A DNA stretch of 64,000 bases, taken from positions 186,001 through 250,000 of the forward strand of contig NZ_CAJXWX010000001.1 of assembly GCF_913062585.1 (NCBI RefSeq), in the 5' to 3' direction. Numbering within the stretch: position 1 is the first letter of the stretch; every line of letters starts with the position of its first letter. Origin of the DNA: an uncultured Sphingomonas sp. (GTDB taxonomy: Bacteria > Pseudomonadota > Alphaproteobacteria > Sphingomonadales > Sphingomonadaceae). The translations under genes were made by a program, and so were the position numbers. The notes under the pieces are model-generated. The model did no database searches, was not told the origin of the DNA, and saw only the letters and a list, made by a program, of their open reading frames with translations. Positions 49,900-50,181 of the stretch are shown here, one piece after another.

Positions 49900-49963
49900 A
49901 CGCCATCCGATGGCGTAAAATCCGAGCGAGATATGGCGGATTTCACCATTTTTTGTTATGGCG
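49900..49963. promoter_or_regulatory. Candidate enhancer: dyad ACGCCAT-CCG-ATGGCGT plus repeated ATGGCG hexamers
   Basis: ATGGCG at 49910, 49933 and 49958 (spacings 23 and 25 bp) plus inverted CGCCAT at 49901; dyad about 85-100 bp upstream of a sigma-54-like promoter. Confidence 0.45.
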
Positions 49964-49999
49964 AAAATAATACTACCGTTTTTCAGCTACTTATAAAAC

Positions 50000-50015
50000 T
50001 GGCATGCGACCTGCA
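50000..50015 (+). promoter_or_regulatory. Sigma-54 (-24/-12)-like promoter
   Basis: TGGCATGCGACCTGCA: GG-N10-GC spacing; compare consensus TGGCACGN4TTGCW. Confidence 0.55.
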
Positions 50016-50073
50016 ACGCTCCTGGCATAGCCCACCAAATGATTGGCGGGCCGATCACCCAGGGAGTTTTGCC

Positions 50074-50181
50074 ATGTTCGCTTCGTTCCAGACCCGCCAG
50101 ATCCTCGTCTCGCTCGTCGGCGCGCTCGTCTTCGCCAGCGTCGCCATCACCACCGCCGCGCCGATCTTCCCGGTCGCCTGA
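50074..50181 (+). CDS. 35-aa single-TM/secreted small peptide
   Basis: MFASFQTRQILVSLVGALVFASVAITTAAPIFPVA; SD AGGGAG 8 nt upstream of ATG; own promoter-like region and 5' UTR hairpin. Confidence 0.65.
   Translation: MFASFQTRQILVSLVGALVFASVAITTAAPIFPVA

Follow-up and report, generated by a model that had tools for sequence, protein, structure and literature searches.

The locus considered here raises a simple question: does a bacterium really dedicate an elaborately controlled promoter to one tiny membrane peptide and, if so, which response does that promoter serve? The window (the whole stretch of DNA analysed, 64,000 nucleotides of a contig from an uncultured Sphingomonas sp.) provides the coordinates used below; features lie on its plus strand unless stated otherwise. 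A GGDEF-domain gene (PF00990; 48823..49896) is followed in the window by a convergent PEBP/YbhB-like gene on the minus strand (PF01161; 50254..50877). Between the two genes, a palindrome array and AT-rich DNA lead up to a -24/-12 element, which is followed by a hairpin, a Shine-Dalgarno sequence and a 35-codon ORF. The first-pass annotation had read this region as a sigma-54-like promoter driving a lone peptide, and a recheck of the sequence found each of its elements exactly where it had placed them, to the base. An Rfam scan of the whole window returned tRNA only. Among the 45 Sphingomonas peptide loci examined, the GGDEF gene is immediately 5' of the peptide in 44 and the PEBP gene is present in 39. 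We take the GGDEF gene as a neighbour, not as a demonstrated functional part of the locus, and the PEBP gene as a neighbour that closes the unit.

The peptide itself (MFASFQTRQILVSLVGALVFASVAITTAAPIFPVA; 50074..50181) has a pN/pS of 0.40 among nine near relatives and of 0.62 among 27 sequences of the 36-aa form, which argues for a protein-coding gene under purifying selection. Its 35 residues contain the one hydrophobic membrane helix initially attributed to them, the top 19-residue window (residues 10-28) scoring 2.31. Using BLAST with the single peptide as query (E up to 1), we found matches in 115 of 201 Sphingomonas genomes; a 22-member profile (E up to 0.01) raised this number to 171, including 157 of the 180 good genomes. 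These profile matches, together with the low pN/pS, confirm that the peptide is conserved in relatives. Among the named species with the peptide are S. sanguinis, S. parapaucimobilis, S. yabuuchiae, S. paucimobilis and S. zeae. In most species the peptide is 34-36 residues long; P30 and P33 are invariant and the final Ala is nearly so. Searches of Pfam and NCBIfam identified no family above cut-off, and no PspG model matched. The region following the helix is readable as a signal-peptidase site, so that the peptide could possibly be cleaved. In many Sphingomonas a second hydrophobic peptide of ~28 aa (MxRSILIGLxAFSTTxLLI...) comes right after the first; it is absent from the window and its clade.

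The 5' UTR of the gene is conserved as well. The hairpin noted earlier (CCCACCAA-ATGA-TTGGCGGG; 50031..50050) is confirmed, with one A.C mismatch. It has a 3-4 nt loop, lies just 3' of the expected start site and is retained throughout the genus, where five of its six pairs have changed in a compensatory manner. Its covariation score is 0.276; shuffles score 0.141 (0/500) and slid controls no more than 0.185. Since the clade of our genome pairs one base out of alignment register, the compensatory count is conservative for this clade. The hairpin may stabilise a short mRNA or tune its translation. Further downstream, the Shine-Dalgarno sequence AGGGAG (50061..50066) lies 7 nt 5' of the start codon at a conserved purine-rich site. 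As a separate observation, positions 50018-50028 are complementary to the Shine-Dalgarno region (50050-50068), the mean run being 5.12 within sequences versus 4.03 between them (0/302 permutations); because the stretch straddles the predicted start site, we did not use this pairing. The covarying hairpin might be taken to mean that the transcript functions as an sRNA in which the ORF is incidental, the more so as the E. coli annotation places an sRNA, pspH, directly behind pspG. However, the start codon, the length, the Pro-x-x-Pro-x-Ala end and the reading frame are all conserved, the Shine-Dalgarno sequence is kept at the loci examined, and both pN/pS values speak for a translated product. 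We therefore regard the small-RNA explanation as very unlikely and treat the peptide as the predicted product of the gene.

The element assigned as a sigma-54 (-24/-12) promoter, TGGCATG-N4-CTGCA (TGGCATGCGACCTGCA; 50000..50015), is kept in relatives. Nearly all of them have TGGCAYG-N5-TGCA, located 67-77 nt 5' of the start codon at nearly every peptide locus; the bases of the GG-N10-GC architecture are nearly invariant and the spacer varies. The genome also has rpoN (contig C14; PF04552, 213 bits), and this, together with the conservation of the element, supports the -24/-12 reading. Exact TGGCAYG-N5-TGCA sites number only three in the 3.9-Mb genome: this locus, the psp promoter and a site on contig C2. 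An upstream palindrome is present at all three. We also searched for the combined pattern of palindrome, 47-77 bp and -24/-12 element, using the same pattern reversed as a control. The pattern was found in 173 of 201 Sphingomonas genomes, the control just once across all 201. So few sites per genome, all of them with the palindrome, and so clear a difference from the control indicate that the promoter match is more than chance. The initial claim that a dedicated, elaborate promoter serves one tiny peptide, unusual as this would be, thus appears to have been right, judging by conservation across Sphingomonas.

The DNA upstream of the promoter was suspected of being compatible with an IHF-type bend. 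Its AT-richness is indeed striking: positions 49917-49999 have 35% GC versus 68% for the window, and only 4 of 63,917 windows of equal size (83 bp) are as AT-rich. An IHF-like site, TTTCAGCTACTTA (49981..49993), lies between the palindromes and the promoter and matches 7 of the 9 specified bases of WATCAANNNNTTR. The best WATCAANNNNTTR match falls exactly at offset -19 in 33 of 43 non-redundant relative loci, and the mean match at this offset is 6.4/9 compared with 1.9-4.1 at neighbouring offsets. This fixed offset in most relatives supports the proposed bend, the copy in our genome being a degenerate one, and IHF involvement has been reported for psp control (PMC3709507). The same conservation bears on whether a sigma-70 promoter is used instead, with TATAAA at 49992 or AATAAT at 49966-49971 and an accidental likeness to -24/-12. 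A sigma-70 scan did find one weak hexamer pair in the region (9/12). However, no -35 fits TATAAA, which sits at the edge of the conserved IHF-like site, and the conserved bases are those of the -24/-12 element, the palindromes and the IHF-like site. The sigma-70 alternative raised in the first-pass annotation accordingly finds little support, and we consider it extremely unlikely.

Returning to the sigma-54 promoter, its putative enhancers are 15-bp palindromes of the form TGGYG-N5-NNCCA (more narrowly, TGGCG-N5-CRCCA) lying, relative to the start of the -24 element, at about -67 and/or about -90, the two classes being 23 bp apart. Nearly all relatives have the proximal palindrome, here TGGCGGATTTCACCA (49934..49948), at -65 to -68. 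The distal one, TGGCGTAAAATCCGA (49911..49925), has a weak right half; its counterparts, for example TGGCGAAATTTGCGA and TGGCGGAATTTACGA, are found at -89/-90 in many relatives. Spans of 82-84 prevail at peptide loci and of 104-108 at psp loci. Palindromes at fixed positions across relatives support the enhancer reading that had been suggested for the ATGGCG repeats at 49910, 49933 and 49958. The repeats themselves are where they were said to be, but the hexamer is not the functional unit: the copies are left half-sites of the 15-bp palindrome, and the third (49958) is not generally conserved. The perfect dyad ACGCCAT-CCG-ATGGCGT (ACGCCATCCGATGGCGT; 49900..49916, assigned to neither strand) overlaps the distal palindrome, starts 3 nt past the stop codon of the GGDEF gene and is kept in the nearest clade only. 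Taken together, these comparisons indicate that Sphingomonas has conserved the 34-36 aa peptide along with its predicted promoter, the palindrome array and the IHF-type site.

Which activator would bind these palindromes? The genome encodes eight full-length sigma-54 activators (bEBPs). One is a PspF equivalog on contig C18 (TIGR02974, 480 bits versus a cut-off of 443.6), divergent from a psp operon with genes for PspA (TIGR02977), PspB (PF06667) and PspC (PF04024); pspF is found in all 180 good Sphingomonas genomes. The palindrome (UAS) of this psp promoter, TGGCGGAATTTCCCA, is identical to that of several peptide loci. In E. coli, PspF binds two UASs at the pspA promoter and one at pspG, helped by IHF (PMC3709507). 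The corresponding sites in NC_000913 are TGATGAAATTCGCCA and TAGTGTAATTCGCTA 5' of pspA and TAGTCAAATTCACCA 5' of pspG, and both halves of the Sphingomonas palindrome resemble them. Since UAS and promoter are shared with the psp operon of the same genome, and the palindrome is similar to the E. coli pspA and pspG sites, PspF is most likely the activator of the peptide promoter. Three observations count against placing the locus in a PspF regulon: the conserved neighbour of the peptide is the GGDEF gene and not a psp gene, the distal palindrome is weak in our genome, and its -24/-12 element departs from the usual TGGCACG at one base (TGGCATG). The promoter might also be served by another bEBP, be it NtrC, NtrX, RtcR, the FlbD-like protein or one of three other response regulators, as seven further full-length bEBPs are encoded and binding sites are not known for some of them. 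Yet both other exact promoter matches carry the same palindrome, one of them being the pspF-psp intergenic region, and the palindrome matches the sites 5' of E. coli pspA and pspG, which makes another activator quite unlikely. Control of the PEP-CTERM type by PrsR, which also depends on rpoN, was considered and dropped, as none of the encoded bEBPs reaches the cut-off of TIGR02915. As for the other activators, the RtcR-type protein is encoded on contig C6 (L052:1902-3494; NF038308, 823 bits); next to it is a divergent gene whose product, judged by eye, resembles a Ro60/TROVE-like protein. Another activator lies near flagellar genes on contig C14 (L049:1729-3021); its best model is FlbD, below cut-off, and it has no obvious receiver domain.

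If PspF is the activator, how far does this type of promoter extend within the genus? Among the 148 sites listed for the combined pattern, at least 63 adjoin pspF and at least 44 adjoin the peptide, and 41 were left unassigned by their coordinates. We inspected 20 of these 41: 13 precede an exported protein, five belong to divergent copies of the peptide and two have no clear gene. The exported proteins are 77-104 aa long and share the motif RYC...TGSRI...C.TR..W or a looser version of it. The contig C2 promoter of our genome (C2:297538-297553; L055:1539-1554), with the UAS TGGCGTATATTGCCA, is of this class. It precedes an 83-aa exported two-cysteine protein with a RYCVIDTLTGTRIRTKKCLTAAQW motif, after which another gene of this kind comes. 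We had at one time considered the C2 match to be due to chance, but its membership in a conserved third class overturned that view. Thus, going by the pattern searches, Sphingomonas has three conserved promoters of the predicted PspF type: those of the psp operon, the lone peptide and the exported two-cysteine protein. Neither the exported protein nor the leader peptide of the psp operon, described below, has a Pfam or NCBIfam match above cut-off.

Small hydrophobic peptides recur next to psp genes. The first gene of the psp operon in our genome encodes a hydrophobic leader peptide of 48 aa (MFATDITRQIAAIACTVVMSATCLLGALAPAH...; L047:2614-2760). In the 18 Sphingomonas psp loci examined, the operon opens with such a single-helix leader of 35-49 aa before pspA, and some species are without it (L057, L085). 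Comparison of the leader and lone-peptide sets with hhalign gave a suggestive probability of 72% (E 3e-5, 30 columns); this value is modest, and hydrophobic helices align easily. Other genera of the family have a peptide of 34-47 aa, several times in tandem, under a PspF-type promoter. Among 37 such loci, located via the promoter or the peptide profile, at least 20 have a solo PspC-domain gene directly 3' of the peptide (BLASTP-confirmed); in most cases neither pspA nor pspF lies within about 1.5 kb. Peptides of this type therefore seem to tend toward a PspF-type promoter and adjacency to a Psp gene, standing alone at this Sphingomonas locus. The linkage is relevant to whether the peptide might be toxin-like or pheromone-like rather than a Psp effector, with PspF merely supplying stress control. 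Its tiny size and hydrophobicity, the occurrence of tandem copies and the strongly conserved C-terminal PIxPIA, which could be a released hexapeptide, all fit such a role. Nevertheless, peptides of this kind are genetically linked to pspABC or pspC across genera and we noticed no antitoxin or antisense partner, so that we consider this role unlikely, if somewhat less so than the other alternatives.

Several known systems help to place the locus as a presumed part of the Psp response. The closest parallel is pspG of E. coli and Yersinia, likewise a single gene apart from the psp operon with a sigma-54 promoter, a PspF-type palindrome (TAGTCAAATTCACCA in E. coli) and a small hydrophobic product. 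However, PspG has 80 aa and an unrelated sequence, and the UAS duplication, the spacing and the neighbourhood are different here. By these comparisons, the locus would work like pspG in gene control only and not in protein sequence; PspF-type control as in pspG is of a known kind, whereas the peptide itself is undescribed. The pspF-pspABC operon of our genome (C18) resembles the locus in its UAS, -24/-12 element, 5' UTR and ribosome-binding region and, apparently, in its type of leader peptide, but in Sphingomonas psp operons the 35-49 aa leader is followed by pspA and the UAS is mostly at -90 instead of -67. The peptide-pspC operons of other genera share the promoter type and a 34-47 aa single-helix peptide as the first gene. 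There a PspC gene follows, whereas in Sphingomonas either nothing or the ~28-aa hydrophobic peptide does. Finally, E. coli YohP (PMC12719787) is also a stress-linked small membrane protein, hydrophobic, shorter than 50 aa and without catalytic residues, but it differs in sequence and in regulation.

Comparison of relatives establishes, at the level of sequence, that a coding gene lies behind a conserved sigma-54 promoter of the PspF type. That PspF occupies its sites here, that stress induces the gene, and that the peptide enters the membrane and acts as an effector are suggested by analogy with the Psp literature and by gene linkage. On these grounds we consider it quite probable that the locus belongs, as a single gene, to the PspF/sigma-54 envelope-stress regulon and that the peptide is a Psp effector or modulator. 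Inner-membrane stress would release PspF from PspA, and the freed PspF would bind the palindromes at 49911-49925 and 49934-49948. By bending the AT-rich DNA at 49981-49993, IHF would then bring PspF to the sigma-54 polymerase poised at 50000-50015. The ATPase activity of PspF would open the promoter, yielding a short one-gene transcript that starts at about 50025-50027 and consists of the hairpin, the Shine-Dalgarno sequence and the 35 codons. The peptide, a single helix, would insert into the inner membrane and there act on the Psp response as effector or modulator, probably close to PspC or PspA.

In E. coli, the PspF regulon is said to comprise two transcription units, the psp operon and pspG, and the role of PspG is still unclear (PMC9239133). 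Two broad surveys of Psp partners (PMC9239133, PMC11237479) make no mention of sphingomonads in their main text. It is tempting to speculate that sphingomonads have a rebuilt Psp response, in which tiny peptides that open the psp operon, form peptide-pspC operons or occupy lone loci are an overlooked core component, joined by a PspF-controlled exported two-cysteine protein; we give this idea about even chances. If it is true, the tiny peptides may act, for example, as a sensor or as an adaptor between PspC and PspA. Independently of this idea, the genus has a putative PspF-type regulon, recognised from sequence alone, in which three promoters serve three small proteins that are not catalogued, and which can be tested directly in culturable Sphingomonas. 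The lone peptide would be a second, independent orphan small membrane protein under PspF control, suggesting that the Psp response may generally need one.
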